This document shows, in pieces, positions 1 to 60,973 of a stretch of DNA of 64,000 nt. The position numbers were made by a program, and so were the translations under genes. Source of the stretch: Cylicocyclus nassatus (lineage: Eukaryota > Nematoda > Chromadorea > Rhabditida > Strongylidae); the NCBI GenBank assembly GCA_958299035.1, contig CATQJL010000305.1, positions 30,579,733 through 30,643,732 on the forward strand, written 5' to 3'. The notes under the pieces are model-generated. The model was not told where the DNA came from. It searched no databases and was given only the letters and a program-made list of their open reading frames with translations. The stretch's first letter is position 1. Each line of letters begins with the position of its first letter.

Positions 1-1906
1 CCCGCTGCACCGGCTGAAGCTCTTGCTGAAGCTACCGCTACTATCGCCGAAGCTGCTGCTACTGAAGCGGCTCCCTCGAAACCCGACGCTGAATCCACTG
101 AAACCGCCGAGGCTGCGCAAGCCGCCGAAAATGCTCCTGAAGCTGCTCCTGCTGACGCCGCAGCAGCTGAAGCTGCTCCCGCACCCGAACCCGCTTCCGC
201 CGAAGCGCCATCTGCTGAGGCTAAGCCGGATGATTCTGCTGCTCCGGCAGAAGCTGCTATTCCTACTGATTTTGTAACTCCTTCTTCTGAAGCTTCTGCG
301 CCGGCGGCGGAGTCTGCTGCCGAACCAGAAGCCCATAAGGAAGACGCCGCTGAAACAGAATCTGCTGCACCAGCTGCCGAATCTGGATCTGCCGCCGCTG
401 AAGCTGCTCCAGCAGAACCTGAGAAAGAATCTGGTAAGTATCTTCTGAGTGATCCGGATTTTTCCCTTTGACTACCCTATTTGCCCCTGTTATTACTATA
501 GAGTCCGAAGAGGAAGATGACGATACGATTGTTCTACGAAAGCCTCTAGGTCGTCCAAAAATTTCTTTTCGGGTCCGGACACCAGGCGAGATAATGAACG
601 CGTGCCGTTTACTATATTTGAAGTGAATCCTAGAGTTATGAATGAGCTTAATCTATCTCTTGCGTCAAACCAACACAACACATATGAACGGTTGCTTGCT
701 TCTATAGAAACCAACAACCCAGTGCGATATGCTGTGAAAACTTTCCTTCTGTTTTTTTCTGAGGATGCGCTTATAAAGCATCTCATACTTCTCCTGAGTT
801 TTGCTGAGATTATGCTGAATATTGGAATTTAACTTGATTGTTTTTTAGAGCCTGCCGCCGCTCCAGCAGAAGCAGCGCCATCATCCGAAGCTGCTGCTGA
901 ACCGGAAGCTCACAAAGAGGAGGCTGCACCCGCTGAAGCTGCTCCACCAACAGACTTCGCGACACCTTCGGCTGAAGTTGTAGAAAACACGGAACCACGA
1001 AAAGTCGATGATGCTCCAGCAGATACTGCCGCATCAGCTCCAGAATCAGAAACTAAGAAGGAGGAGGAAGCACCTACGGAAGCTGCACCAGCAGAAGCTG
1101 CTGCGCCAGCTTCAGAAGAGGCTACGCCAAGAGAAACTGCTTCCGAACCAGAAACACACAAGGAAGAAGCTGCACCGACGGAAGCAGCTCCTCCAACCGA
1201 TTTCGCGACTCCTTCAGCTGAGACATTAGACGAAACAGAGCCACGCAAGGTAGAAGACGCTGCCGCAGAAGCTGCTCCAGCAGCTGCAGCTGAAGAACCA
1301 GCAGCAGAAGCTGCTCCAGCAGCTGCAGCTGAAGAACCAGCAGCAGAAGCACCAAAAGAAGACGCGCCTGCCGCTGAGGCTGCTCCAGAGAAACCTGCGG
1401 AAGCTGCTCCGGCGAACGCTGCTATTCCCACTGATTTTGTAACTCCTTCTTCTGAAACTTCTGCACCGGCAACGGAAGCTTCTGCCGAACCCGAAGCCGA
1501 GAAAGTAGAAACTGCTCCAGCTGAAGCCGCTGCACCAGCGGCTGAAGGCGCTCCTGCAGGTGAGTCCGCGCCAACTGAAACTGCTGTTCCAACTGATTTC
1601 GTTACTCCATCAGGTGAGACTGCTCCAGCTGCTGAGGCTCCAGCTGCTGAAGAAGCAGCTCCCGCCGAAGCTGCAAAACAAGAATCGCAACCAGAAGCTG
1701 CTCCTGCAGCGGAAGCAGAAGCTGCTCCTGCAGCGGAAGCAGAAGCTGCAAAAGAAGAACCTTCTCCTATTGTGAACGCTCCAGTTGCGGAAGGACAGGC
1801 CGACCTTGTCGGAGAAGCTGAGGCTGCCGCTACCGCCACCGAAGGAGATTCCGCTCCTGTGGTCGACGCTGCGCTACAGCAAGCTGCACCAGCCGCAGCC
1901 AGTTAA
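1..1906 (+). CDS. Ala/Glu/Pro-rich low-complexity protein, 3' part (5' end outside window)
   Basis: Two exons are clear: 1-433, open from the window edge, and 849-1906, ending in TAA at 1904-1906. The donor at 434 reads GTAAGT and the acceptor at 847-848 follows TTTTTTAG. Both halves read in one frame as Ala, Glu and Pro with Lys and Thr. The motif PTDF(V/A)TPS recurs five times, near 262, 946, 1198, 1430 and 1585, and EPEAHKE-type blocks recur beside it. A 39-bp unit is duplicated near 1260-1340. There is no catalytic motif or membrane segment in the visible part. The composition suggests a flexible, acidic, probably structural or scaffold protein, but I do not recognise it. A perfect internal CAG|GTGAGT near 1557-1562 could act as a cryptic donor, but coding repeats continue through it. 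AATAAA at 2044 may be the cleavage signal. The minus strand is also open here (1839-910), an effect of GCT/GAA codon bias. Confidence 0.8.
502..626 (+). CDS. Alternative exon inside the intron of the Ala/Glu/Pro-rich gene
   Basis: The acceptor TATAG at 497-501 is followed by a frame that fits the phase-1 donor at 433. It reads ESEEEDDDTIVLRKPLGRPK and then a short basic tail ending at TGA 624-626. Used to its end, it gives an alternative C-terminus of about 41 residues. A weak donor, CTAG|GTCGTC at 549/550, would instead make it a 48-nt cassette that rejoins exon 849 in frame and adds 16 residues. The acidic run followed by a basic patch differs from the flanking Ala/Pro repeats. Both the exon and its splicing are inferred from phase and composition. 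Confidence 0.5.
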
Positions 1907-30933: not shown

Positions 30934-31181
30934 TACAACATGTTGAACGGCTTGGAGTTGCAGTGTTTATGTGGAAAATGTTTCGCTACCCATTAGAGTT
31001 GTTCCGAACATGGGCAGATGAAAAAAGCAAACGAGCAAGTTACGACAGATTAGGCGGCGAAGTCGCTAGGTATGACTCAATGCGCGTTCATAGGGTCTTC
31101 ACTCCTCAGTTTGGAGATCGCTACAGGGTTCTACAGGGTGTCACAGAAGTCTTTAGGCCTAATGTTTCTTCAGTTGATTGT

Positions 31182-31358
31182 AACCTTTGATTCAACTGGC
31201 TTGGCGGCCGGAAGGCGAAGCTTTGTGACCTAATTAAGGCCGTTCGCGCTCGTTATGCAGTCTGCGTCTCTCGTGAGCGCGTGCTCTCTGACCATTGCCT
31301 AGCCTCAAATAGGTCACGAAGTCCCGCCTTTCAGCCGCCAAGCCAGTTGAATCAAAGA
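31182..31358. mobile_element. MITE family H, copy 1
   Basis: AACCTTTGATTCAACTGGC...GTGACCTAATTAAGGC is inverted as TAGGTCACGAAGTC...GCCAGTTGAATCAAAG. It is a near-complete palindrome of about 180 bp. Six more copies occur in this window. Confidence 0.85.
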
Positions 31359-31792
31359 GTACGAGGCAACGTAGATTTATGAAATTCAGCATATGATTTG
31401 TGGAAAACCTCCAAACAACAAAGTGTACTCATTGTCGGATTTCAAAAAACCCTTCTTAGGCTTTTACACAGGCCCTCAGACTCCTGCGGGACGCGTACAC
31501 CGTAGCAGACAGCTATTTGGTAGTAAAAATTTCCTCATAGTTTCTGAAGCATGCATTTCCGACTATCCAAATTCTAGTGGAGAAAAGAGCAAGCTTTGTT
31601 TTCCACCACTAATCACTAAGAAAGGACTAGGCTTTTGACCAGAACGCATCAAATTGAGATGCATTTTTATGAGATCGAGCAAAATTGTTGAAATGTAGCA
31701 ATCAAGCCTTTGAGAACATCAAGAAAACAGCAATTGTGGTGTACCCGGAGTGACTTTAAAATAATATTTCGGAGAAAAAATGCAAGGCTTAC

Positions 31793-32462
31793 AGCTAGAA
31801 CTACTGATTCCGACTGAATTAATGTTGGAGATTTCAGCTTCTTCGGGTTCTCGTTTTCGAAAACGTTTTCTACTCGCTGGCGCTGCACTACTTTGAGAAT
31901 TTGCATCTAAACACTAATGAATTGAGACTAGTGATTGGTTTGTACTGCTAATGTAAAGCGAAGGTAGCTCTACAATTTGCAGTTTGGAGTTTTGCAAAAA
32001 CCCAAAAGTCAAAAAAGCTACCCTCTGATTCAAGTGGCTTTGCAGCTGGAAGGTGGGGTTTCGTGAACTAATGACAGCTAGGTAGTGATCAAAGAGCACG
32101 CGCGCGACAGAGATGCAGACTGCGCTGCGGGCGCGAGCGGCCTTAATTAGGTCACAGAGCCCCCTTCCAGCCGCCAAGCCACTTGAATCAAGGGTTATAT
32201 ATGTTTGAACAGTACATTTCGCTGACTTGACATCAACATCGTAGTATCTGATCTGAAGAACAATTTCTTGAGAATGTAAATGCAATTTTTAGAGGTTTTC
32301 TCAGTAGTTTTTTTTAGTAAATTAAATTTAGGGAATCTATAATTTTTGGAGTATTACAGGCTACCTGAACGAAGTACCCATTTGCAAGCTTTGAGAAAAA
32401 AAACCGATGAATATCAAAAAATTAATACCTTGAAAAATCAAGCTCAAAGACTTTTGCGATAC
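31793..32462 (-). CDS. Two possible extra exons, Arg/Ser-rich
   Basis: 32462-32429 is a 34-nt exon (acceptor ATACAG, donor GTATTA, VSQKSLSLIFQ). 31906-31793 (GTTTAG/GTAAGC) encodes ANSQSSAAPASRKRFRKREP and EEAEISNINSVGISSSS. They join in frame. The first exon accepts phase 0, the phase left by the Arg-rich exon at 36709, so they could be an alternative 3' end of that gene. They could also be a separate gene whose flanking exons I cannot see. MITE copy 32022-32196 lies in the intron between them. Confidence 0.4.
32022..32196. mobile_element. MITE family H, copy 2
   Basis: ACCCTCTGATTCAAGTGGCT at the left is inverted as AGCCACTTGAATCAAGGGT at the right. The interior has GGTCACAGAGCCCC and CGCGCGCGACAGAG motifs shared with the other copies. 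Confidence 0.82.
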
Positions 32463-34917: not shown

Positions 34918-37900
34918 TCAGCCCGGATTCTCCCTAGCCAGCTTCCTCAATTCCTGGTCTCTTTCCTTTGTCACACCTTTCCCCACATCTACAATTTTTC
35001 CCAATTCCTCTCCCCCCTGAAAATCTGTTCTTGCAGCATTAATTTGCAGGTATTTGGCCCTGAATTCCATAACGTCTTGAATGATAAATGATTGCATATT
35101 CACAGAATTTTGAATGGGCTTGATTATGAAGTTAATCAGACTACATTTTCGATTTTTATGACGTGCACTTAGGGCGGGCTTGATTCAGAGAAGAAGCAGC
35201 AGAAGGTATTTGGTCGCCCAGGACTTCACCCGAAAATATTATTATTGAAAAAATGACCTAATAGAGGATTGTGCGTTTATCAATCCCTACAATCCTCAAG
35301 AGATCAAATAATCATGAGAAATGCTATATTTGACCGAGGAATCAAAGCAAAGAAGATGCGAAACAAGCGCTGTAGGCAGACTGAAGCAGCGTAAGTGACG
35401 TAGCCAGATGGCATGTGTGGCACCAATTGAATACATAATGACCTGCATTAATTAGGGTGGCTGCTAATTGCCATGCAAGAAAAATTAGGATATCTGAGTC
35501 CACTGTTTTGACGCTGTGTGATACGGATATACAACACCGCTCATAATTCGTCAAAAAAGTCACCTAACTTCAGTGGATTTCACCGAAATTCGCGTCGCAT
35601 TTCCATACCTTGGCTTCGAGTAGATGAATTGTGAATCCAAGGGCACCATTCAACTCAGCTCAATGGGATGCATCTTCTGATATATTGTGGAGCTTGTTTA
35701 TATACGGTTGCGGTCAGATTTCACAAATTTCCAAAAGATCTTTACTTACGGTAGGCTACTCGATGTGTATATTTTTGCACACTCTGACCTACCGTATGCA
35801 GAGCCTTTGACATCCAACCGGCCAGCGTATAGAAACGAGCAGTTCCATATACACTGGAAGATGCATCTCGCCGAGCTGAATCGAACAAAGCCCTTGGATT
35901 CCGAATCACTCCTGACTATGATGCGACGCGGATTTCGGAGAAAACTAATGGAGTTCGGTGACTTTTTTGGCGTGATATGACGACGTTGTAAGTGCTGGTG
36001 CTAACGATTTCATGTTCTCGATTCATGACGTAAATACAAATGATGGCTCGCGAGCATGACGTTATCAATCAAAAATTGCCCAATATCAGTTTGTGGTACT
36101 ACAAATGCAAGCAAGTGTAATATCTATTCTGCAATAGATTTCGTTGTTTGATAGAATATTGCGAAAGGGGTTCAACAACTCCATGATTCTCAGTTTACAT
36201 GAAAGAAAGGAAATTGAAATAGTAGTAATGATACGTTGCGGGTTAGCTCGAACATGAAGAAAGTAAAATTTTTAGAAAAATCACAAGGTATAGGAAAATA
36301 AACTTCTAGCACCTGCGAAACTCGAATGTATTCCTTTGTCTGAAATGAGTTTTTATTTTTTGCATCTCTAGATTGCTTAGCATTCTTAAATGACGGAAGC
36401 TATACTCTTTCGAGAATTTATGAACACATGCGCGATTATCCATCGCCTGTCACCCTGCTACAAGCGCTGTTTGAGAAAACATTATATAGATGCCAGCGTA
36501 TCAAACAATTTTGATAAATTTTGGTATTGATCAAATATGATGCTGTATATTGTGGATGTTGGCTGAATGGAGTCTGATGCTGCCAAATAAGAGCGATTGA
36601 CTGATAGATGCACCCAAAAAATTGGAGACATAAAAATCAAGAGGTTTTGTCGCGTATTACGTCAAGAAACGAAGATATCAAAGCGCTGAAAATGTTATAG
36701 AAGCCAACCTGAGCTTCGCGACGCCTTTGTGCTCTTTCTCGTCTCTTTTTTCGTCGTCTTAATTTCGATTCTGCTGATGAGGCTATCGAAACTGAAAACG
36801 TCAGAGTTAGAGCATATCCTGGATTAGTTTGAATGAAAGCAGTGCTCTCACTCCCCAAAAGTAAAATGAGCTTTCAACAACTAAAAAAAATCAAATGATT
36901 ACGAAAGGCATTTTATTTAATAGATAATCGAGTCCAAATAATGTTTGCCAAACCAACTTACCGACATCAACCCGTAGAGGTTTTTTGCTATCTCTACGTA
37001 CAGCTTTTGCTTCACGTAGACTACGAAACCGTACAAAACTTGAGCATTCATTACGACGAACGGGTTCACTGCGTGCACGACGTCGTGGTAGTTGAGCATG
37101 AGCTATAAATCATGAAACTATTATTTGAATTAAAGGAAAAGTTCAGGGAATCAACATGTACAAACGATACTTTAAAAAGTTATCAGCAGCAAAGTTAAAG
37201 TATTCGATTATTTACAGAAATAAACATAAACAGCGTGGTATATGTTACACATACATACCCCTTGGTTCAACTTTCTTGGCAGCTGGGAAGCGGGGCTTCG
37301 TGACCTAATCAAGGCTAGGTAATGGTCAGTGAGCACGAGCGCAGGAGAGACGCAAACTGCATCGCGGGCGCGAGCGGCCTTAATTAGGTCACAAAGTCCC
37401 GCCTTTCAGTCGCCATGCCTTTTGAATCAAAGGTTATTTCTCTTCTTCTCATTCACTGTTTTGTATCCAAAAATAAGTTTCGTAACCGAGCCCCTCCCCC
37501 TCCGAAAAGCGAAAGATCAGCATGGTCTTTCACTTTGGAAATTTCCAGTAAAATCCCATTTCTTCTTTTTGAAAATAAAATATGAAAACTGCAAATGTAC
37601 AGCGCTTTACAGACATGAGCCCCTTTTTTAGGAACCCCTTCCGGTTCACACCTGCAAAATCACCATAGTTTTCGAATGAGAAATAAAATGCGCATTATTG
37701 CAGCTATATCTACGATCAATTTTATTTCGCATAATCGCGCCATAACTTTCAAAAAAGGCAAGTTTTATGTGATTTTGTGCTGTTGCATGCACATCAAACA
37801 TGTGCTTAGACAAGCGAATATTTTTGATGGAAAAAATCCTGCAAGAGGCAAACGCTTGTTTCCAAAAACGAAAATTTTATGCTAAGAAAGTTTTAAAATG

Positions 37901-45691: not shown

Positions 45692-46018
45692 ATGCTTTTT
45701 CACACGCTGCTGTTGTTTGTGCTTCTACCAACTTTATGCGGTAAACCACAACCTAATCTGAGAGATTTTCGTAGCCTTCCCCCGAGGAAATTATCATCTG
45801 AGGTCAGAAATTCACCCTAGCATTCTATGATTGGTGCTAACAATTTCACTTTGCAGTGCAACGATATATGTCGGAAGAATTACACTATGCTGCTAAAATT
45901 CCTGAAAATCGACAAGTCCAAATTCTGCCTTCGTGTGTGCAACGAGAACACATTTAAAGATGGTCGCAGCCATCTCCAACCTCTCAGGGACCGGCTTCGG
46001 GAACTGTTGGAGAGTTAG
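45692..46018 (+). CDS. Small secreted protein with twin CX3C motif, paralogue A (90 aa)
   Basis: Exon 1 is 45692-45802 and exon 2 is 45857-46018, with a 54-bp intron (GTCAGA...TTTGCAG). Residues 1-17 (MLFHTLLLFVLLPTLCG) are a signal peptide, followed by a basic spacer (KPQPNLRDFRSLPPRKLSSE). The mature domain starts at the exon boundary: CNDIC, 18 residues, CLRVC, then a charged tail ending LRDRLRELLES. Cysteines are at 38, 42, 61 and 65. Two CX3C pairs 18 apart with Leu/Lys between them suggest a helical hairpin held by two disulfides, as in alpha-hairpinin-like peptides or, by shape only, twin-CX3C proteins. It should be exported to pseudocoelom, gland or host. AATAAA lies at 46092. Function is unknown. 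The paralogue is at 52552-53014. Confidence 0.8.
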
Positions 46019-46091
46019 CTTTCGAATCTCTTGAAGAACAGCCCAATGAAAGGACAGTTTTACAATTTCTCTTCTAATGGCTTCCTTGAGA

Positions 46092-46097
46092 AATAAA
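46092..46097 (+). promoter_or_regulatory. Polyadenylation signal of paralogue A
   Basis: AATAAA 74 bp after the stop at 46018, a typical compact nematode 3' UTR. Confidence 0.6.
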
Positions 46098-46831
46098 TAC
46101 ACAATCCTAAACGTCCTCCAAAACTTCACAACAATTTCCAGCATTCTTCACTGGGAATGAACTGTTGTTATATGAGAGGATTCCATTATGTGCGCATTTC
46201 CACTAGGAGACTGACAATGAGACAGTCCATCGCATTCTATATAGATTTCTGGAAAGATTAAAGGACTTTTCAAAGCTTTTGAAAACTTAGAAACAATTAA
46301 CTCGTACTCTGTCCTGATTAGCAAATGCCGCGTGCATTATGATTGAAAACTCCCTATGAAGCTTGATTGAATGGATACAAGTCCTGTCTTATTGTTGAAT
46401 ATCAAAGCACATTGTTTGCGTAGCCTTTCATTAAACCAAAAAATTGTTACCTGCAAATCAACGCTGGCAGGGCACACTATATTAGACACTTAAGAGGTCT
46501 CAGTTTACAAACAAGATGTTACTAAACAAAAGTAGTGCTGTAGTAATGCTTTGTCTTGAGTGCAAAAACAGATAGCTAATTCACCTTTGAAACAAAGTAA
46601 ACCATGTTGGAATATGACCATTTCACATGGGTAGCCTAGTATCTTGAATCTTCAGAATTCGCTCAAATTTTGTCCACAGGGGTTAACTGACATGCTAATC
46701 ATGGATATAATACGAATATCATGTTATCACTATTATCCAATTACCCAACTACACCCCCTCCCCTTTTGACTCCTCAATACGACCCCCCAGGTGTGGCGTG
46801 CCACACCCCACGCTTGACTCTGCTTACAATT

Positions 46832-47240
46832 GATAGAATATGCACTATATTAGAAAGCATAAATTGCTGATTCCAAATCTACCTCTCTTATATGCGGAAC
46901 ATTTGTGGACGAGTTATGAGCGTTCGTTGAATCAAAAAAGAAAAAATGCATCAAGCATAAAATGGGTTGCTGAAATCTCCCTGACCTTTTGTATAATGGA
47001 ACTAAATATGATATGTTTTTTTCCGAAAGTAATTACTGGATTAGGTGCTCCGATAATCAACATTGCTGAAGCGATAGAAAAAATTTTGCGACAATTTCTC
47101 TTCTATTTGCACATGTAATTTTTTTTGCTCTAATAAAAGCTCATAACTCCTCATCCATGAACGTTCCGCAATAAGCAAGGCAGTTTGGGATCAGCGTTTC
47201 ATGCTCTCCAATACGATGTACATCTCACTTGAAAGGGCTA
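46832..47240. repeat. Foldback repeat, family L copy 2
   Basis: GCACTATATTAGAAAGCATA...GACGAGTTATGAGCG pairs with AGCTCATAACTCCTC...CAATACGATGTACAT. It is collinear with 44899-45321 but more diverged. Confidence 0.72.
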
Positions 47241-47505
47241 CTGCGACCAAAGATGGTTTCTTTGTTAGGAGTATTTGAAATTTCTCCCTGAGTAAGCGAA
47301 TACCAAATGGAATCGAAAGTCGAAAATACCGAGCAAATGAATATCAAATGATAAAAATGAAATTATCAAAAGCTGAAATTGTCAAATACACTTTGATTGA
47401 ATTCCAAAATTGTTATCGAACTGAGAGAATATTCAGATAACCTATTCGAAGTTTTAGACATCCGGGATAATTCCCTCAGATGTTCAGATATTCGAATGGT
47501 GAATA

Positions 47506-49195
47506 TTAGGTTGTAACATGAGTCTTGTTACACTCTAAATTATTAAGACAGTAAGTCGTGCACTTCACTTAGTAAAGATCCGGAGCACGATTCGGTAAGA
47601 AAAGCAAGCTCTACAAGATGGTATGCACAAATGTCTGCACTATCCACCCAAAGTTTGCATCTAAAACCTGATTCATAATAAAGGCTCAAAAAATTGCGAA
47701 AAATTCATATCTTCGTTCAAAAAACAATCCTACGGATCCTCGAACTTGCTCACAAAAATTGCACTCTATATCGGACACTCATATATACCATTCCTGTATT
47801 TTTCTCTCGTTTAGAAATCGAGAAAACGAAAACTTTCTTTCTTCTACAAAAACGAAGCTATGCTGATTCCACTCATGTAATTGCATACTACATACTAGCC
47901 CTTAAGAGCCTTCATTTTCGGAAACTACTGAATTTAGCTCTTCTTACTCGGGGGTCCCATGCTAAAATCAATATTTCCTGGAAACTAGGGCTTGTGGAAA
48001 GCTGAGAACTTACGCTTATGCTTTAAAAGGCTTGTATATATTAGGTTGTCCGGAAATTAATGTCCGTTTTGAATTTCAACCGCAAAGTCATATAATTCTC
48101 AATTCTGATTAGGTTGCAAGGTAACATTTGGTAGAGCAAAGCAAGCTCTACAAAACGGCAGTCTTGTTTTTGCAGCAGCTCTCATTAACCATGAGTTTCG
48201 AGCAAAAAACTAAAAAGATTCAACTGCCCAAAAAATTGAGAACAATCGTTGTACCGTCCTCACATGGGTATTTGTATACTGCAAGCGTGTAGAAGTGCAA
48301 ACCTAAATTTTCACTCTCTACAAGCTTTAATTCCGAGAATTTTGAATTTTGGCTTGGACCTCCTGACTAGTAAAAGCCATATTCGATATTTCTTAAGAAA
48401 GCTTGTAGGGAGCTGAAAATTTAAGTTTGTACTTCTACAGGTTTGTAGTATATAACTATTATATTTATGTGCGGACAGCACAGCAATACTTTAGCACATG
48501 CGCGAAAATTTCACTTTTCTTGATCTCTAACAAAGGAAAAAATACGGCAATGGCATATATAGGTGTCTTATGTGGATAGTGTTTACGAAAGCTAGTTAGA
48601 TTTTTTGCAGGATTTCTATGAACTAGTTACGATTTTTCTCAAGTTTTCGGGCAGGTGGATCTTTTTAGTTTTTGGTTCGAAACTCAAGGCTGCTGCAAAA
48701 ACAAGACTGCCATTTTGTAGAGCTTGCTTTGCTCTATCGAATGTTACCTTACAACCTATTCAGAAATGGAAATTGTATGACTTATTGCGGTTGAAAATCA
48801 AAACGGATATTAATTGTCGGACAATCTAATACAATAATATGAGTAACAGCATACCTTCGTTTCAAGAAGAAGAAGCATGAAAATTTTCGTTTTCTTGATT
48901 TCTAAACGAGGAAAAAAATCCAGAAACGGTGCATATGGGAGTCTGATGCAGTCTGCATTTTTGTGAGCAAGTTGGAGATCTGCAGGATTTTTTGAACGAA
49001 GGTATGAGTTTTTCGCAATTTTCTAGGCCTTCAGTATGACTCGGTTTTTGGATGCAAGCCTATGGTGGGTCGAAGCTAGTGCGAACTTGTGTAAATCACC
49101 TTGTAGAGCTTGCTTTTCTCTATCGAATGGTGCCTTGGGCCCTATCGAAAATGTGAAGTGTACTTATCATTGTAAGAAGCTATAGTTTAACAAGA
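47506..49195. mobile_element. Foldback element family I, interrupted by another foldback
   Basis: The left end TTAGGTTGTAACATGAGTCT and a decayed right end near 49195 (TATAGTTTAACAAGAG) match the intact copy 59457-60403. The left arm (47506-48040) and right arm (48830-49195) are split by the separate TA-flanked element at 48041-48829. A GCAAGCTCTACAAGATGG segment and its inverse mark the arms. Confidence 0.78.
48041..48829. mobile_element. Nested TA-flanked foldback element, 789 bp
   Basis: TTAGGTTGTCCGGAAATTAA and TTAATTGTCGGACAATCTAA are inverted and flanked by TA. The arms pair for more than 200 bp (GAGCAAAGCAAGCTCTAC / GTAGAGCTTGCTTTGCTC). There is no transposase. Confidence 0.88.
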
Positions 49196-49234
49196 GTTTA
49201 TCTTACAAGAGCTAGTTTATCTTACAACTCAATA

Positions 49235-50060
49235 TATGTTATTTAGCGCTTTCATTGATATTTTCCCTCGACACTTTTAGCCGAAATTTTTTGTATCCAG
49301 CTGACTCAGGAAACACGGGAATGAAAGGATTAGTGGGGAATTGAATTCAATGGAAAAGTGAGCAGGCGATTACGTTACCAAAGATTCAGGTATCATAGGC
49401 AAAGCACTACTTTTCTTCTTGTCAAAACTAACAAAGTAGAGATAGGACAGTTAATGTAAATTTATGTTATGCTTGGAAAGCTCTTCTTCCGAGACATTTA
49501 AAGGGAATTTGTCTCTATCATGCACTCAAACTTGAAATTTTTAAACGAAGTTTCCAGTTAATAATGTGACTGCTTTAGTTACAGCATTCAGACAAGCAAC
49601 AAATGCTTATTGAGAAATTATAACACATCACGAAAGCATTTATTGGGATATGAAAGTAGAATTTCACAGAAATTTATTTATAGCGACAACTTGCAGCAAC
49701 AATCAACCACTTTCATTTTTGGGTGGAGTTCAAGCTGTTACTTTGCTTTAGCATAAGAGACAACAGCAAGAGCTCCGTTTATAGAAAGTGACTTGATGTG
49801 GGAGAAAACAAAAGGTCAATGATTTATGGTGTGCGGAAATGCTTGTAGAGTATAACAAAGTATACAGCGTAAAAGCTGTTCTAACCATACCACATCAAAA
49901 ATATTTTCCTTCTTCAGTGTTATCATAACATAAAAGTTCGAAGTTAGCGGAGCAGATGTTACGAGTGCATTAGATCCCAATCACCTGACGAGGATGGCTT
50001 GACATTACATATACATTGTGACTTCGAGAAATTCAAACAGAAATACCGTTTTAATTGAGA
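49235..50060. repeat. Interspersed repeat M, uninterrupted copy
   Basis: It is collinear with 56005-56392 plus 58253-58700: shared ATTACGTTACCAAA, GGTATCATAGGCAAA, AAAGCTGTTCTAAC, GCAGATGTTACGAGT. Its right part also matches 53920-54120. No clear termini were found, and the copies are too diverged to set exact ends. Confidence 0.7.
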
Positions 50061-50109
50061 AGCAGTAGTCTTTTATAATATTGAGTACGCAGCAAATTAT
50101 CTGTCAAAT

Positions 50110-50472
50110 TTGATGTATTCAGTTGGTATAAACTACCATCGGTGTACATTGCAAATGTATAAATTAGCGGAACTGGAGCTCAAGTACAAGCACTACTATC
50201 TACGCTTCAGGTGCTCCGATCAAGTGGGTAAAAGCCTCAATTACCTATTTTCTTCTATCCTTTCAAACGTTTTGAATTCCCCTTTGGGGAAATTAGATAC
50301 ATTTCTCGAAAAAGTAGGTAGAATTCTCGCTATATTTCGGTGCCTGATCATGCCCGATCTCGGCAGGTCGGGCTCTGTTGCCCGTTTGGGCCACTTGCCC
50401 CAAACTTTCATAAACGGTATGGCGCTCTCACCTGTCCGGACACTCGTTAATGATGGCCCAAACAGCGAGTAG
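50110..50472 (+). CDS. Unassigned 120-codon open frame
   Basis: The second half reads FLEKVGRILAIFRCLIMPDL, then GRSGSVARLGHLPQTFINGM, with balanced codon use, ending at TAG 50470-50472. No promoter or splice context and no recognised family. It sits between repeats, so it may be transposon-derived. Confidence 0.25.
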   Translation: MMYSVGINYHRCTLQMYKLAELELKYKHYYLRFRCSDQVGKSLNYLFSSILSNVLNSPLGKLDTFLEKVGRILAIFRCLIMPDLGRSGSVARLGHLPQTFINGMALSPVRTLVNDGPNSE

Positions 50473-50682
50473 AAGATTGATGAATAGCGCCCAGATGTCT
50501 CAACCCTAACTTTGAAGATGTTTTAGTAGAGTTAGAAAAATCTCAGAAAGAACAACCCAAGGATTCAAAAACTGAGCATACGATAAAAATGCTATCATTT
50601 TCATTCAAGTTCCAGCAGCTTGCGCTTGATCTAAAGAGTGACCAGATCATTCAATACGTACATACATCCGTAAACGCACTAA

Positions 50683-52030
50683 GGCCCGTATGCACGTACA
50701 TCCCCGCTGGGGAGGGGAGGGGAGCTGGATCCCCAGGGGAACGATCCCCTTCGCCGAACCCCGCCATGACAGAGGGGAGGGGAGCGATCCCCTCCCCTGC
50801 ACCTAAGCGGGGATGATGTGAATGGTTTCAGAGGTATTGATCGAGCGAACCCCAGTGCATACGGGGTTCGAATGGGGGAGGGGATCCCTTCCCTTCCCCC
50901 ACTCGAACCCCGTATGCGCGAATTCAACTCAATAACGCGGGGGAGGGGATCGACATCCCCTGCAACGAAGTAGGGGTTCGATGGTGTAGATCATGCCAGA
51001 GACGCCGATATTCTGGTTCTGCTCAGTCATTACCAAGCATTTCGTTCATTTTGACGGAGGATTTTCTTTGAAAGCCGGGTTCTTCTCTCAGCGACCTGTG
51101 GCTTGCAATTTGTCTTTCTTTTTTATATTCGCCTCTTGAGAAGGAATCCGAGCAATAATAGCAGCCAATTTCGATTATTTGTAGGAGTTCTTGATCATTC
51201 AGAAAATTTGCGCATTTTTCATATAACATAATAGTTTTAACTATATAGGCTGAGTAAACACTTTGTAACTTTCATATTTCATGACATGTTGCCATTATCT
51301 TGTTATTTTAACATAAGCTGCCTCGAAAAAATCTAGAAAGTAGCACATTTGCCTATTTCTGAGTAGAAATCCCCTGGGGAGTGATCCCCTCCCCAGCGTT
51401 CCCCTTGTGCATAGCAGGGATGGCCGCTGGGGATCATTCCCCTGGGATGAAGGACGATATGCTGCTGATAGCTACAGCGTTTATGGAGAACTGGCACAAT
51501 TTGCCGCTTCTGTTATGTGTTAAAATACTGCTTTGAGCGTCCGCGCGGCACCCCCCCCCTTTTCGGCAGCATAATGTCATCTACCCATTCCCTTGCAGAG
51601 ACACATCAACTTCTATAGTTCAACATTTTTACGCTGAAATGGGGCAGCATGAGCGAAAGTGGGCAGCATCCAAGAAAGCAGGAACATAATGGGAGTAGAA
51701 AAAATCATTTTTAGTGCCCCGAGCGCAGTCACTGCATGCGCGCATTCCGCAACCCTAAATTAAAAGTGATGAGATGAAGATGAGTTGCAGTCAAAATATG
51801 AAATAAGAAATAGTTTTTTATAGAAAATTTGAAAGCAAGGTGGTTTCCCCGCTTGATCCCCTCTTGTGCATAAGGGGGTTCACTTCCCCTCCCCACAGGG
51901 GATCCCTTGTCCGATATTGTCTTTGTGCATACGGGGGTTCGCGCGGGGAGGGGAGGGGATCCCCAGCGGGGATCATTTCAATGGTTAAGCGCACATCCCC
52001 TCCTCGCGGGGATGTACGTGCATACGGGCC
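50683..52030. mobile_element. PIF/Harbinger-like element, 1,348 bp
   Basis: The 25 bases at 50683-50707 (beginning GGCCCGTATGCACG) are a perfect inverse of 52006-52030, and TAA flanks both sides (50680-50682, 52031-52033). A TAA/TTA duplication with GG-type ends is characteristic of PIF/Harbinger. Subterminal regions (50690-50985, 51368-51450, 51845-52005) are packed with GGGGAGGGGA/TCCCCTCCCC words. The AT-rich middle (51023-51340) has no transposase frame, so it is probably non-autonomous. Confidence 0.85.
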
Positions 52031-52523
52031 TAATAATACTAATAGCTGCCATTTTTTGCGCCGAACCATAAAAAACCATGTTTTTAGTGATACAATTTGT
52101 CCCATTGAAACTGGGTGAATTCAACGCAGTGAATGTTAAAGCCAGAGCAGATAATAAGTTCTACAAGCAGGCTCTAGGTATAGAACCGTTGCTCCTCTTA
52201 AGTGGCCTCCGAAACGAGAAAATGGATATGTAAGTGGGTAGGATACTATAAGTCGTCGGTAGGCTTCAACTGTCACACATTCGTTCAGCTTAGTTGGATT
52301 TATATTAAAACTGGGAAGACGGTTGAAAGGCAAGAAAAGTGTTCTTCTCGCTGAATATGCTACGGATGTTCTTTGACGTCCCTTGCAAAATTGTAAAAAA
52401 AGTAGACCTACTCACTCTCATAAGGCAGAACATATGTAGATAAAGTTACAGTTGCTGGAAAATCACAAAAAAAAATTTGTTCTCATGTTCTAGTGAATCA
52501 CTAGATAAAGTTACTATGATTAC

Positions 52524-52525
52524 AG
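52524..52525 (+). promoter_or_regulatory. Possible trans-splice acceptor
   Basis: ATGATTACAG ends 26 bases before the ATG at 52552. Confidence 0.35.
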
Positions 52526-52551
52526 AAATCGCAAAGTCATCCGCAAACAAC

Positions 52552-53014
52552 ATGCTGTTCCTCAAGTTGTTGCTAACTGCACTTATCGCGTATGTGTACG
52601 GTGGTTACAGTGGTTACAGTCACGGTCACAGTCAATACAGTCATAACGGTTATATCCGTCGCGGTGATTACGTACCCTTCAACGGTGATTGGAATCAGGT
52701 CAGAAATTCCCCTATACTTTATGCGAGCTAATAAGAATTTTGCTTTACAGTGCATGCGCAGATGCTATTATCTGATCTACGTTTTCTATGTGAGAAATAA
52801 TGCAATACAACAACAAGATGTATACCCCTACTGCAACGATTACTGCAATCAGCAACTTCGGGAGGCACTTCAGCAAAGATATCCGTACTCATTTTACCGA
52901 CCCGGTCAGCATCCACAAGTGCCATATTCCGGGGAAAGCGCAGAAGCCGCAGAAAACAAGGCAAATTTTGAAAACGCACTTCCCTTCGCAAATGTCGATG
53001 AGTCAGAAAAATAG
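52552..53014 (+). CDS. Small secreted protein with twin CX3C motif, paralogue B (136 aa)
   Basis: Exon 1 is 52552-52698 and exon 2 is 52751-53014, with a 52-bp intron (GTCAGA...TTTACAG). Residues 1-17 (MLFLKLLLTALIAYVYG) are a signal peptide; upstream in-frame Mets exist, but only this one starts a signal sequence. Then comes a Gly/Tyr/Ser/His-rich spacer (GYSGYSHGHSQYSHNGY), CMRRC at the exon boundary, 22 residues rich in Tyr/Val/Gln, CNDYC, and a long tail with Gln/Pro/Tyr and an acidic end. Cysteines are at 50, 54, 77 and 81. Intron position, intron start and cysteine layout match paralogue A at 45692, so I assign them to one family. The Tyr/Gly/His-rich part suggests an extracellular matrix or cross-linkable secretion; that is a guess. 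Confidence 0.8.
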
Positions 53015-53078: not shown

Positions 53079-53084
53079 AATAAA
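53079..53084 (+). promoter_or_regulatory. Polyadenylation signal of paralogue B
   Basis: AATAAA 65 bp after the stop at 53014. Confidence 0.6.
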
Positions 53085-53527
53085 ATGTTACTGTGTTACT
53101 GTTAATCATGCTTTCTGTACGAATACACCATCGAGATTAGGATTCCCAATGTCAGATCGCATTCATTCAGATGTCACTTCGATACTATCAAACAAATTTA
53201 TTTAGATTTTATTGATTGTGAAAAATCAATGCAAGAAACCATCTTAAGGGTAGGCATTTTGATATTTAACTTATATTTGAATTTTTGTGGGAGCACTTTC
53301 AACAACAACCTGGACCTTTTTATCTATCAGACTGAACTTGAACGTTTTTCCGCATTGTAGCGTGAGAACCGGTACTGCAAAACTTCGCTTGAAGATGGTC
53401 CAGTGCGGAAGAGAAAAAGGTCATTTTCATAAAAATGCTTAAAAATAGTACAATGATATCACGCAAAAGCAAGGAAGCCGTTTTGATTGATCTAGATCAA
53501 GACATTTCCCATTATGCATTGTGGCGA

Positions 53528-53676
53528 GGTTTCGTGAATAGAGGCTGGATAATGATCAGAGAGACGGCACGAGAGACACACAACAGGGACGCAGACTGCG
53601 TCGTGGGTGCGAGCGGCCTTAGTTAGGTCACAAAGCTCCGCCTTCCAGCCGCCAAGCCAATTGGTAAGAAGGTTAT
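53528..53676. mobile_element. MITE family H, copy 4 (degraded left half)
   Basis: The right half is intact (GCGAGCGGCCTTAGTTAGGT...CCGCCAAGCCAATTGG). The left half keeps only GTGGCGAGGTTTCGTGAA. Confidence 0.7.
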
Positions 53677-53737
53677 ATTCGAAGTAGCGCAGCGGATAAT
53701 ACGAGCGCATGAAATCTAAATTACTCGATGAGATGAT

Positions 53738-53912
53738 CCTTGATTCAACTGGCTTGGCTTCGGGAGGGTGGGGCTTTGTGGCGTAATTAAGGCCGCTCGC
53801 GCCCCCGACGCACCTGCGTCTCTCTCGCGGGGCTGCTCTCTGACCACTAGCTAGCCTTAATTAGGTCACGGAGCCCTGCCTTCCCGAAGCCAAGCCAGTT
53901 GAATCAAATGGT
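53738..53912. mobile_element. MITE family H, copy 5
   Basis: CCTTGATTCAACTGGCTTGG at the left and CCAAGCCAGTTGAATCAAAT at the right, with an internal GGCCGCTCGCGCC. Confidence 0.85.
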
Positions 53913-53919
53913 AGCTGCT

Positions 53920-54120: not shown

Positions 54121-54647
54121 AGAAAAAAACCGAGTTTGAAGTATAGTGTGGACCCTGGCCAGCCCCATAGGTACCTGCGCGACGCACGCGCAACGCACGC
54201 CTTCTGTGCGCCTTCTGTCTTAGCTTCTGATATTCCTCGCTTCCTTTTCATTTTCTAGTTTTGTTGTGCTATACTTCCTCTGTTTCAGGTATAAGTAATC
54301 AGCGATAACCGATGACGAGGTTTCACGCTCTCTAGTAGTCCTGAGAGCTTCGGTCTTGTGTAGTTGTCTTGTGTTTTTCCTTTTTTTCCCTGAGAAATTG
54401 ATATCGGAGTGAATTCTAATTGTAAGAAAATATCCCTGCAAAAACTTCTTGTACGCAATAAGCGCCCCTTTCGACTAGATTTGTAAAGCGTAGACAATGC
54501 CGCAAGTCAAAATTAAGCCTTTCGAGAAGTCGGTAGGCTCTGCTTTGAAATCCTTGTTTTTTTGGATTTTTTTCCCATTTTAGTTTCTAAATCTGCGAGA
54601 GGAACATTTTAAGAATGCTTGTATTTTTTTCTGCTCTGCGTATATAT

Positions 54648-54821
54648 ACCTTTTGATTCAACTAGCTTGGCAGCTAGAAGGAAGGGCTTCGTGACCCAGT
54701 TTAGGCTAGATAATGAGAGCACGCGCGCGACAGAGACGCAGACTGGTCGCTGGTGCGAGTAACCTTGCATAGGTCACAAGGCCCCGCCTTCCAGCCACCA
54801 AGCCAGTTGAATCAAAGGTTA
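54648..54821. mobile_element. MITE family H, copy 6
   Basis: CCTTTTGATTCAACTAGCTT at the left and AAGCCAGTTGAATCAAAGG at the right, with GCGCGACAGAGACGCAGAC inside. Confidence 0.85.
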
Positions 54822-54831
54822 CTTATTATCG

Positions 54832-56392: not shown

Positions 56393-58252
56393 TTAGTCTG
56401 TTGCAAAAGTAATGCCCGTTTTTCTAGGCCTACTTTCCAAACACTCTTTTCCTTCAAAATCCCTTTTTCAATATGGATCCTGCATATCTTTGAAAGCTTT
56501 CTTGATGTACTTTCTGACAGTAGTAAAACTAAGCTTCCACCTTATCCGTGAAAATTTCACCAGCATATCGTACAGCTGCACTCAAAATCAAAACATTGCT
56601 TTAACTTTCTCGGCCACAATTTGGGCGCAACTAAACGAATTCTTTTGAAAACATACTGTATGGGATGAATATGTATTCTTTACCTAGTGCATGCTTAAAT
56701 TAATTTTTCGAATATATTATCTGGACTGAGAAATCGACGCCTCAAAATATCAGGCTGTTCCATAAGTTCCGCCCGTTTTGATTTTCACTCGCAATAAATC
56801 ATGAAATTCTTGTTTCTAGATAGGTTCCAAGGTACTTTTCGATAGAGCAAAGCAAGCTCTACAAGAAATCTATCTCGCTTTTGCACCAGCCCTGATCCAC
56901 CTCGAATTTAAGGCGAAAACTAAAAAGATTCAACTGCCCGAAAAATCGAGAAAAAATCATAACTCCTTTTTAAAAAATCTTACAAAAATTTTAACTTTCT
57001 CGCGTATATACTATCCATTTAAGACATTTATATACGCTGTTGCCGTATTTTTTCCTTGGTTAGAAATTAATAAAACCAAGATTTTCGTGTTTTTGCTAAA
57101 GCGATGCTCTGCTGTTCCTACATAGATAGCTTCTACTAGTCTGTAGAAGTACAAATGTAACTTTTCAGCTTCCTGCAAGTTTTGGTTCGAGAAATATCGC
57201 ATACAGCTTGCATTAGTTGGTTGCCTTACGCTAAATTCCATATTTCTCGAAAACTAGTGCCTTTAGAGAGCTGAAAATTCAAATTTGTACTTCTACTTGC
57301 TAGTAGTATACAACTATCTATGTAGGGACAACACAGCATGGCTTTAGCAAAAACTTGAAAATCTTCGTTTTCTTAAATTCTAACCAAGGAAAAAATACGG
57401 CGACAGCGTATATAAATGTCTTGAATGGATAGTATATACGCGAGAAAGTTAGAATTTTTGTAGGATTTTTATGAACTGAGTTGCGATTTTTTTCGATTTT
57501 TCGGGCTGCTGAGTCTTTTTAGTTTTTGGCTCAAAACTCGAGGTGGATGAGAGCTATTGCAAAAGCGAGATAGCCCTCTTGTAGAGCTTGATTTGCTCTA
57601 TCGAATGGTACCTTGGAACCTATCTAGAAATAAGAAGTTCATGATTTATTGCGATTGAAAATCAGAACGGACGGAACTTATGAAATAACCTGATAGATAC
57701 TCGCTGGAGTATTTTTCCTGATTGAGGCAATCGCCAAAGATTCGCTCATTTCTGTATGTTAAAGTCAAGACATCTTGCCTACAATTTTTGCCGAAAAACT
57801 TATGCTTAGCTATTCAGGCATGTTGGTCAAATTACCATAATTTGGCACTTACAAGCCTATAATGTGCTCAAAAAAGTGAACATTTTGGTTATTTATCCTT
57901 TCTTTTCGCAGAACTCTTTCGTTGAAGTCTGTTATATACAAACGTATACTATTGACCTACTGCTTCAAAATAAGGTGATTGACAGCTACAGGAACAAAAC
58001 TTGAAGGGAGTTGAAAGCTCTTGGAGACAAAGTTTTTAAATGAAAAAGTTTCAGTTACTTAACTCATGGTTTTTTCCCGTTTGCGATATTAAAGTTTTTT
58101 CCCGTTTGCGTATATCAGCAAGTGCGCGCTAAATTACGAATGATTTACTGCTTCTGATAGTCTTAACTGCATTCAAGAATATGAGACTGGACAAAGTTAT
58201 AGCCTTTCAAATTGAAAATCTGCGAAACGGACATTTTTTTGCAACAACCTTA
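56393..58252. mobile_element. Outer foldback-type element, itself interrupted
   Basis: TTAGTCTGTTGCAAAAGTAA at the left and TTTTTTGCAACAACCTTA at the right are inverted, followed inward by GCCCG/CGGAC. It interrupts repeat M and contains the TA-flanked element 56749-57693. Confidence 0.7.
56749..57693. mobile_element. Nested TA-flanked foldback element, 945 bp
   Basis: TCAGGCTGTTCCATAAGTTC at the left and GAACTTATGAAATAACCTGA at the right are flanked by TA. Arms pair for more than 350 bp (GATAGAGCAAAGCAAGCTCT and its inverse; GAAAAAATACGG/CCGTATTTTTTC). Confidence 0.88.
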
Positions 58253-58700
58253 TAGAATTTCGGCGAAATTCAATTATAGTAACAGTTTGTATCAACAATT
58301 GACCCAATTCCATTTTTAGATAAAGTCGGAGCTGTTCCTTTCCCTTAATAGAAGATACAATAGCAACTCCGCTTGTGCTCGCTTGTAGATATTCAGTTAA
58401 TGTGGAAGGAACAAAAGGTCAGTGATTAATGGTGTACAAGAATACTTGGAGAGTATAACAAATTATACAGCTAAAAGCTGTTCTAACTAAACCGCATCAA
58501 AATATTTCCCACTCTTCAATGTTGTATTAAAACATGTAAGGTTCAAAGTCATGAGGAGCGGCAGATGTTACGAGTACATAAGATTTGAATCAATTGATGA
58601 GGATTCTGTTTGACAACTACACATATAATGTTTGACTTTGGCGAACTACATATGGTTATTTCTCAATACTACGACTTGACAGATATGCTATACCGTTTTC

Positions 58701-59456
58701 AAGAGAGCAGAAGTTTATGCTCATTTGGTAAAGGACAGTTCAACAGGCAAGTACTGTTGATATAGTCAATCCTTAAATAAACTTACAAAACGTGTAAATT
58801 TGTGGCTTTGAAGCCAACGTACAGCACTGTCGCCTACACTTCTCCAAAACATCCAGGTGGGTGAATGCGATTCCAGTTACCAATTTTCTCCTCTCTCACT
58901 CCACAAATACAAATTTTGTTCTGCGAAATATTAGATACATAAGCTCAACTTAGGGAAGTATATAGGATCCATAACTGACTTCTTTGGAATCCTGCATTTC
59001 ATTAGAGCGTAATTTACATATATACCCAAACATCAGCTACTTTCATCCATTAATTTTGGTGTTTTTATTTTCCAAGTTTTACCTTTGAACGAGCGACATC
59101 TTATATATAAAGCTGAATGTCTGTTCGTATGTATGTCTGTCTGTCTGTCTGTGTGTACGTATGTTCCGAATAGAAAATTCCATTTCTGAACCGATCGGGA
59201 CCAAACTTGGCACACATACACTTCGGGCCCCGGCGGGTGTCATAGGCTATTTTTCGTATCGATCGATATCGATTTTATCGTTTATAATCAAAACGTAAAT
59301 TTGCTAACGGTATGCAAAACTCAAGTGAACTGAGATATTAACCATCAACTTCAAGGAAAAAAGAAAGGAAACACAAGAAAAAGGCCCTACCAAGCATAAT
59401 GCGTATCATTTCTGTGATCAGCATGCCAAATAGCCCCCGTGGAGCATGTTTTAGTA
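58701..59456. other. Repeat-bearing stretch without a gene
   Basis: 59096-59290 is the inverted copy of the 22742-23370 repeat (TATATATAAAGCTGAATGTC, a CTGT microsatellite, TTCCGAATAGAAAATTCC, ATCGATCGATATCGAT). No exon was supported. Confidence 0.55.
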
Positions 59457-60403
59457 TTAGGTTGTTACATAAGTCTTGTTACACTTTAAATTCTTACGGC
59501 GTTAAGTCGTAAACTTCATAAATTTTATTAGCTCTCCAGGGTACCTTTCGATAGAGCAAAGCAAGCTCTACAAGATAGTCTGCAAAAGTTCGCACCAGCT
59601 TCGACCCACCGTAAGTTTGCATCCGGAATATGTGTCGCACTGAAGGCTCAAAAAATTGCGAATAATTCATATCTTTGTTCAAAAAAATCCTCCGCATCTA
59701 CAACCCGTTCACGCAGACTGCCTAATATATCAGACACTCATTTGTACCGTTGCGTATTTTTTCCTCATCTAGAAATCGAGAAAAGGAAAATTTTTAAGAT
59801 TTTACAAAAACGATGCTATGGTGTTTCTATTCATGTAGCTATATACTACAAACCCTTAGGAGTATAACCGTAAATTTTCAGCTCTCAAGAAGCCCTAGTT
59901 TTCGAAAATTACCTAATTCACCATTGAACGCCCGATTGAGAGCAACTAAATTCGTTATTTTTTGAAAAGTAGGGCTTCTGAAAAGCTGAACATTTACGGT
60001 TATACTTCTAAGGGTTTGTAGTATACAGCTACATGAATAGAAACAGCAGAGCTTCGTTTTTGTAAAAACTAAAAAATTTTCCTTTCCTCGATTTTTAGAT
60101 GAGGAAAAACAGTAACGGCACAAATGAGTGTTTGATATAGTGGGCAATTATTATGGGAAGTTGGAGATTCGTAGGATTTTTCTGAGCAAAGATATGAATT
60201 TTTCGCAATTTTTGAGCTTTCACTACGACTCAGATTTTGGATGCAAAATTACAGTGAGTCGAAGTTGGTGCGAACTTTTGCATAGCGTCTTGTAGAGCGT
60301 GCTTTGCTCTATCGAATGATATCCTGGAGCACTGTAAAGAATTTGATGTGCATGACTTATCGCCGTTAGAAGTCAAGGTAACAAGACTTATGTAACAACC
60401 TAA
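59457..60403. mobile_element. TA-flanked foldback element family I, intact copy (947 bp)
   Basis: TTAGGTTGTTACATAAGTCT at the left and AGACTTATGTAACAACCTAA at the right are perfectly inverted with TA outside. The arms pair over most of the length, so the transcript would be one long hairpin. It is the parent-type copy of the interrupted 47506-49195. Confidence 0.9.
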
Positions 60404-60973
60404 TAGTTTCTGCAGTTACCACATACGTAATGGCTTACATACTTAGCTGAGATGGTTAATCAGACATGATTAATTTTCTTTTAAAGGTAAGCCAGTTACC
60501 TCTTTCGCATCCAACACGAAGCACTACTCCTTGACGCAGCTTAGATCCTATTTGAAATGACGCCATTCTAAGGAGACAAAAGCTCAGCCAAATTCTCCTT
60601 TATTCGCTTTCAATGGTCATGGTTCGAGCGACCAGTACTCAGCTCAGTGAAGACACCAAGCTCAAATCAGCTCCGCGAAACCTGGGAGTTCTACAGATAA
60701 GGAAATAATCACATTCGAAAGAAGTCCTGGTGATGTATCGTCGATTTGTTGACCGCACGGACTGCTCAATGTTGCGGACTACGCGCGGCGCGGCCGAAAT
60801 GTTGCGAGAGCAGGACTTTTCAAGGGGGAATTCGTAATGGAGCGTATATTAATCTGCAGCGCGTGCTCCGCAGTGATGTCCAGTCCGTTCAGTCAACGAA
60901 TCGAATTAGCTAGGTGTAGGTCGTTTCACACCCGTAACCTGCGTCGTAGACAAGAAATCACAGTCGAATCACT

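Follow-up and report, generated by a model that had tools for sequence, protein, structure and literature searches.

Two divergent genes for predicted secreted proteins that share a leader, a short intron and a twin CX3C cysteine frame

The stretch of DNA analyzed here (the window) is 64,000 nucleotides long and contains two small genes on the same strand, each with two exons, which are referred to below as gene 1 and gene 2. Judged by the evidence in their sequence, both are real genes. Their features are as follows.

45692-45802, + strand: gene 1 exon 1 (111 bp), encoding a hydrophobic leader of about 17 residues and a pro-segment with an RK dibasic pair
45803-45856, + strand: phase-0 intron of gene 1 (54 bp), a homologue of its gene 2 counterpart
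45857-46018, + strand: gene 1 exon 2 (162 bp including the stop codon), encoding CX3C-X18-CX3C and a tail with a predicted amphipathic helix
46092-46097, + strand: AATAAA poly(A) signal of gene 1, a consensus match only, 74 bp beyond the stop codon
52552-52698, + strand: gene 2 exon 1 (147 bp), encoding a hydrophobic leader of about 17 residues and a Gly/Tyr/Ser/His pro-segment with an RR dibasic pair
52699-52750, + strand: phase-0 intron of gene 2 (52 bp)
52751-53014, + strand: gene 2 exon 2 (264 bp including the stop codon), encoding CX3C-X22-CX3C followed by a 55-residue tail with a net charge of -3
53079-53084, + strand: AATAAA poly(A) signal of gene 2, a consensus match only, 65 bp beyond the stop codon

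The predicted products have 90 (gene 1) and 136 (gene 2) residues, and possible acceptor sites, TTTTGCAG and TTACAG, are present 5' of the ATG codons. The leaders were judged by hydropathy, their length of 17 residues being set by eye, and the hydrophobic N-termini of the two proteins are alike (p 0.0015). Beyond the leader each protein has four cysteines, all encoded by exon 2. The gene coordinates, the stop codons and the phase-0 introns of roughly 53 bp that were proposed in the initial annotation agree with these models (54 and 52 bp, both phase 0), and so does the description of a second exon that opens on a cysteine, with a loop of 18 residues in gene 1 and of 22 in gene 2. The contrasting compositions that it reported were also recovered: the 73 post-leader residues of gene 1 include eight Lys, nine Arg and 12 Leu (net charge +8, pI 9.8), whereas the 119 post-leader residues of gene 2 include 16 Tyr, 11 Gln, eight Gly and four His (net charge -2, pI 6.1). 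Both introns open with an in-frame VRNSP (45803-45817 and 52699-52713) that is followed by a stop codon, and these 15 bases differ between the introns at two third positions only. It is conceivable from the sequence that intron retention gives a short product.

Between the two genes lies an element (50683-52030) with 35-nt terminal inverted repeats that are 89% complementary (arms 50682-50716 and 51997-52031). It is rich in GGGGAGGGGATCCCC-like stretches and is flanked by TAA on both sides, and it resembles a non-autonomous DNA transposon of the Harbinger type. A repeat family with nested inverted repeats (47504-49208 and 56747-60411; copies 61-74% identical) makes up a large part of the sequence between the two genes and beyond them, and a dispersed repeat is found at 31181-31362, 32019-32217, 37251-37439, 53523-53678, 53738-53913 and 54642-54826, with 64-80% identity between copies in alignments of at least 93 nt. 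The window also contains an open frame at 833-1906 (+ strand) of 357 codons, with Ala/Pro/Glu-rich repeats of the PTDFATPSAE-like type, for which no Pfam match at E<=1 was obtained.

The architecture of both genes is not due to chance. Acceptor-adjacent exons with a twin CX3C occur twice in the window, compared with a mean of 0.01 and a maximum of one in 100 dinucleotide shuffles of it. The combination of a twin-CX3C exon with an upstream hydrophobic leader exon was obtained in none of 100 dinucleotide-preserving shuffles, in a test that was devised after the pattern had been seen and whose script used another gene 2 donor (last base of exon 1 at 52671, giving a 79-bp intron). The donor at 52698, which results in the 52-bp intron, is preferred because it is supported by the matching gene 1 intron. 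When only the cysteine pattern was searched for, under looser conditions, five matches were obtained in six frames, three of them outside both genes, and thus it is the gene architecture, not the cysteine pattern by itself, that is significant. Given four cysteines in exon 2, the combinatorial chance of the cysteine frame is 1.5e-4 for gene 1; for gene 2 it is 4e-6 with a loop within four residues of 18, a tolerance that was picked afterwards.

Several comparisons indicate, at the level of sequence, that gene 1 and gene 2 are paralogues. The two introns are identical at 39 of 52 positions (z 8.5 against base shuffles), a feature that is absent from the initial annotation. When six donor and eight acceptor bases are trimmed, the remaining intron core is identical at 26 of 38 positions (z 4.2), and a tighter trim of 10 and eight bases leaves 21 of 34 (z 2.8). 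The two introns score 20.0 against each other, while the top score among 62,850 other 52-base pieces of the plus strand of the window is 10.75, and the best among 459 GT...CAG pieces scores 7.0 against intron 1 and 8.0 against intron 2. The leaders share 30 of 51 bases (z 4.7). The 60 bases upstream of the genes are weakly alike (z 2.5), and the 150 bases downstream show no likeness (z -0.1). The paralogy claimed earlier is therefore borne out by the introns and the leaders.

The exported domain presents a different picture. In a Cys-anchored codon alignment of the hairpin, which comprises 32 codons and in which the gap position was chosen for maximum identity, 35 of 96 bases and seven of 32 residues match, and without the four cysteine columns identity falls to 24 of 84 bases. 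Both proteins retain the frame; hence, the earlier description of a fixed cysteine frame in a strongly diverged remainder stands. The leader (30/51) is better preserved than the non-Cys hairpin (24/84; Fisher p 0.0006), and so is the intron core (26/38; p 0.00005), with p 0.38 for the leader compared to the intron core. Thus, divergence is greater in the exported domain than in either the leader or the intron. The Nei-Gojobori pS is 0.75 for the leader and 0.84 for the hairpin, so that synonymous sites are near saturation and dN/dS is not estimable; positive selection on the exported domain is suggested by the contrast in identity. An identical divergence picture would result from gene conversion of the leader and the intron, or from constraint on the intron. 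Exon 2 homology between the genes is undetectable at the DNA level (whole exon z 1.2, p 0.12; hairpin part z 0.2) and, therefore, the case for it rests on the cysteine frame. The best local protein match in exon 2, CNDIC/CNDYC (p 0.03 against shuffles), pairs the first motif of gene 1 with the second motif of gene 2 and may be due to chance. The gene pair resembles those toxin families that retain the leader while the mature part is replaced. The title of PMC3853724 reports accelerated evolution for the BDS cDNAs of sea anemones.

The initial annotation had put forward a two-helix hairpin. AlphaFold models of the second-exon peptides, built without an alignment, place helices at residues 2-15, 20-30 and 41-52 in gene 1 (mean pLDDT 72.8, pTM 0.51) and at residues 2-16 and 25-43 in gene 2 (mean pLDDT 63.5, pTM 0.38, with a tail of low confidence). 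Blocks of pLDDT 80-85 cover residues 1-30 of gene 1, and blocks of 67-84 cover residues 1-40 of gene 2. In both models helix 1 begins right after Cys1 and contains Cys2, and helix 2 contains Cys3 and Cys4. Hence, two helices over the CX3C motifs are predicted in both cases, as anticipated, but the turns (residues 16-19 in gene 1, 17-24 in gene 2) are displaced from the point midway between Cys2 and Cys3. The modelled register consequently does not obviously unite the cysteines, and the stapling of the hairpin is something that we infer. A two-helix hairpin in both proteins is weakly supported by the models. Foldseek searches with the two models gave no credible match, nor did a comparison with the PDB.

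No relative at E<=1 was found for either protein among about 5.8 billion proteins, in a search that depends on shared five-residue words and that yielded two and eight word-sharing candidates for the two proteins, none of them scoring. As a coverage control, the major sperm protein of C. elegans gave 283 candidates, 280 of which scored at E<=1e-5, and among the matches listed were many named nematodes, including Ancylostoma, Necator, Haemonchus, Nippostrongylus and Oesophagostomum, which indicates that nematode proteins are well represented in the searched set. The absence of relatives in such a nematode-rich set would fit a pair that is lineage-specific, although the source species itself, or the annotation of such small genes in it, may be missing from the set. 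A clade V nematode is a plausible source of the pair. A Pfam scan likewise gave no match above the cut-off for either protein, the only sub-threshold hit being HEPN for gene 1 (12.1 bits compared to a cut-off of 27), with none for gene 2.

Mitochondrial small TIM proteins also have twin CX3C helices, with shorter loops and no signal peptide. They were rejected because both proteins have a hydrophobic leader and gave no Pfam match above the cut-off. The plant alpha-hairpinins resemble the gene pair in having a twin CX3C, four cysteines, secretion, low conservation outside the cysteines and two helices (predicted here). As set out in passages of PMC7191063, the alpha-hairpinin has two CX3C motifs, two antiparallel helices with a loop, and the disulfides Cys1-Cys4 and Cys2-Cys3, and the scaffold has antifungal, trypsin-inhibitory and ribosome-inactivating members. 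However, its loops are given there as 12 (BWI-2c) and 13 (EcAMP1) residues, compared to 18 and 22 in the gene pair. The same passages (PMC7191063) describe two precursor types, both multi-module and one of them vicilin-like, a single-module type being still sought, whereas the genes analyzed here encode a single module directly preceded by an intron. Since the loops, the precursor type and probably the kingdom differ, the pair may work like an alpha-hairpinin without being one. A helical hairpin scaffold, again predicted here, is also shared with the kappa-hefutoxin-type scorpion peptides, and kappa-hefutoxin 1 is stated to resemble an alpha-hairpinin structurally (PMC7191063, in part); these are, however, venom peptides of another phylum, likened to our pair by description and not by sequence. 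The nematode antimicrobial peptide (AMP) groups, like the pair, consist of small secreted peptides, and several of these groups have a cysteine frame. According to sections of PMC10506718, nemapores have three disulfides, diapausins six cysteines and CS-alpha-beta peptides at least six, while mature GRSPs have a glycine content above 17%. With four post-leader cysteines each, the two proteins were rejected as nemapores, diapausins or CS-alpha-beta peptides, and with 1.4% (gene 1) and 6.7% (gene 2) glycine they were rejected as nematode GRSPs. The hookworm Secreted Clade V Proteins (SCVP) and SL4P are, in sections of PMC6497320, families named for being secreted or strongylid only; they were considered by description only, and an undetected identity with one of them is possible.

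Based on the sequences, the pair most likely represents a secreted scaffold that is specific to one lineage, is braced by disulfides and has a surface that changes rapidly. We regard it as an evenly balanced proposition that an old duplication gave rise to two secreted proteins in which the leader, the intron and the four-Cys frame were kept, and the exported part was changed nearly completely. Gene 1 and gene 2 would then have arisen by an old gene duplication on one strand. The leader would be cut off by signal peptidase, and a prohormone-type protease may cleave ahead of the first cysteine, at the RK pair in gene 1 or the RR pair in gene 2; such dibasic pairs often occur by chance, most of all where the pro-segment is basic, as in gene 1. 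The bonds Cys1-Cys4 and Cys2-Cys3 would staple both helices together as a small scaffold outside the cell. The free surface of this scaffold would bind an extracellular target and would be rebuilt in each copy. The targets probably differ by copy, gene 1 being basic and gene 2 Tyr-rich and near neutral, and rapid change would fit an interface with a moving partner, such as a host, a microbe or the other sex. Of these elements, the paralogy, the hydrophobic leader, the shared cysteine spacing and the unequal divergence can be read directly from the sequences of the two genes.

Other explanations have to be weighed against this one. The functions named in the initial annotation, those of effectors, antimicrobial peptides or gland products, are speculative. 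It is unlikely that the two proteins are antimicrobial peptides that disrupt microbial membranes. Such a role would suit gene 1, which is basic and whose three predicted helices have hydrophobic moments of 0.47, 0.38 and 0.57, and sections of PMC10414684 describe the helminth AMP-like set of one pipeline as dominated by peptides with more than two cysteines. Gene 2, however, is near neutral, with moments of 0.31 and 0.19, and the different net charges of the two proteins (+8 for gene 1, -2 for gene 2 and -3 for its tail) make one shared membrane-lytic role unlikely. Moreover, neither protein belongs to any of the four known nematode AMP groups whose definition rests on cysteines or glycine, and cecropin, whose signature is that of a linear amphipathic helix and which was looked for by Pfam only, gave no match above the cut-off. 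A reproductive or body-surface role, as seminal or epidermal secreted proteins, in which the Tyr-rich copy might become cross-linked within an extracellular coat, is also unlikely: fast divergence is often seen in reproductive proteins and 16 of the 119 post-leader residues of gene 2 are Tyr, but gene 1 has a single Tyr in 73.

It would be quite improbable, in our judgement, for homology to be confined to the leader and the intron, either because one leader exon came to precede second exons of unrelated origin, or because gene conversion homogenized the leader and the intron alone. The DNA similarity of the second exons is indeed near the shuffle level, in contrast to the z of 8.5 for the introns, but both of these exons start on a cysteine and encode a twin CX3C with similar loops, for which the combinatorial chance is about 4e-6 given four cysteines. 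Secreted protease inhibitors, acting like the plant alpha-hairpinin trypsin inhibitors through a reactive loop between the helices, are very improbable, as the proteins have no loop motif in common and the single Arg in each loop adjoins Cys2 in gene 1 but lies ten residues past Cys2 in gene 2; in favor of this role are the presence of that Arg in both loops and a twin CX3C frame in common with the plant scaffold, which in passages of PMC7191063 includes trypsin inhibitors with a functional Arg.

We advance a broader proposal tentatively, as doubtful: that the pair represents a family of animal helical hairpins, stapled by disulfides, whose leader and even whose intron persist longer than the domain that is exported. 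Such a family would evolve like the conotoxins, with a fixed leader and cysteine frame, a replaceable surface and a separate partner for each copy. We found no description of such an animal hairpin family. Small, fast-changing secreted cysteine peptides as a kind are already well known; what appears unusual in this orphan pair, as far as its sequences go, is the clarity of the contrast between the leader and intron on the one hand and the exported domain on the other. If confirmed, the pair would clearly illustrate how a family of secreted proteins with a cysteine frame escapes homology searches. The gene structure itself, that is, a leader exon, a phase-0 mini-intron of the GTCAGAAATTC type and a cysteine at the start of the next exon, could then serve as a handle to reveal members whose exported domain has no detectable similarity.
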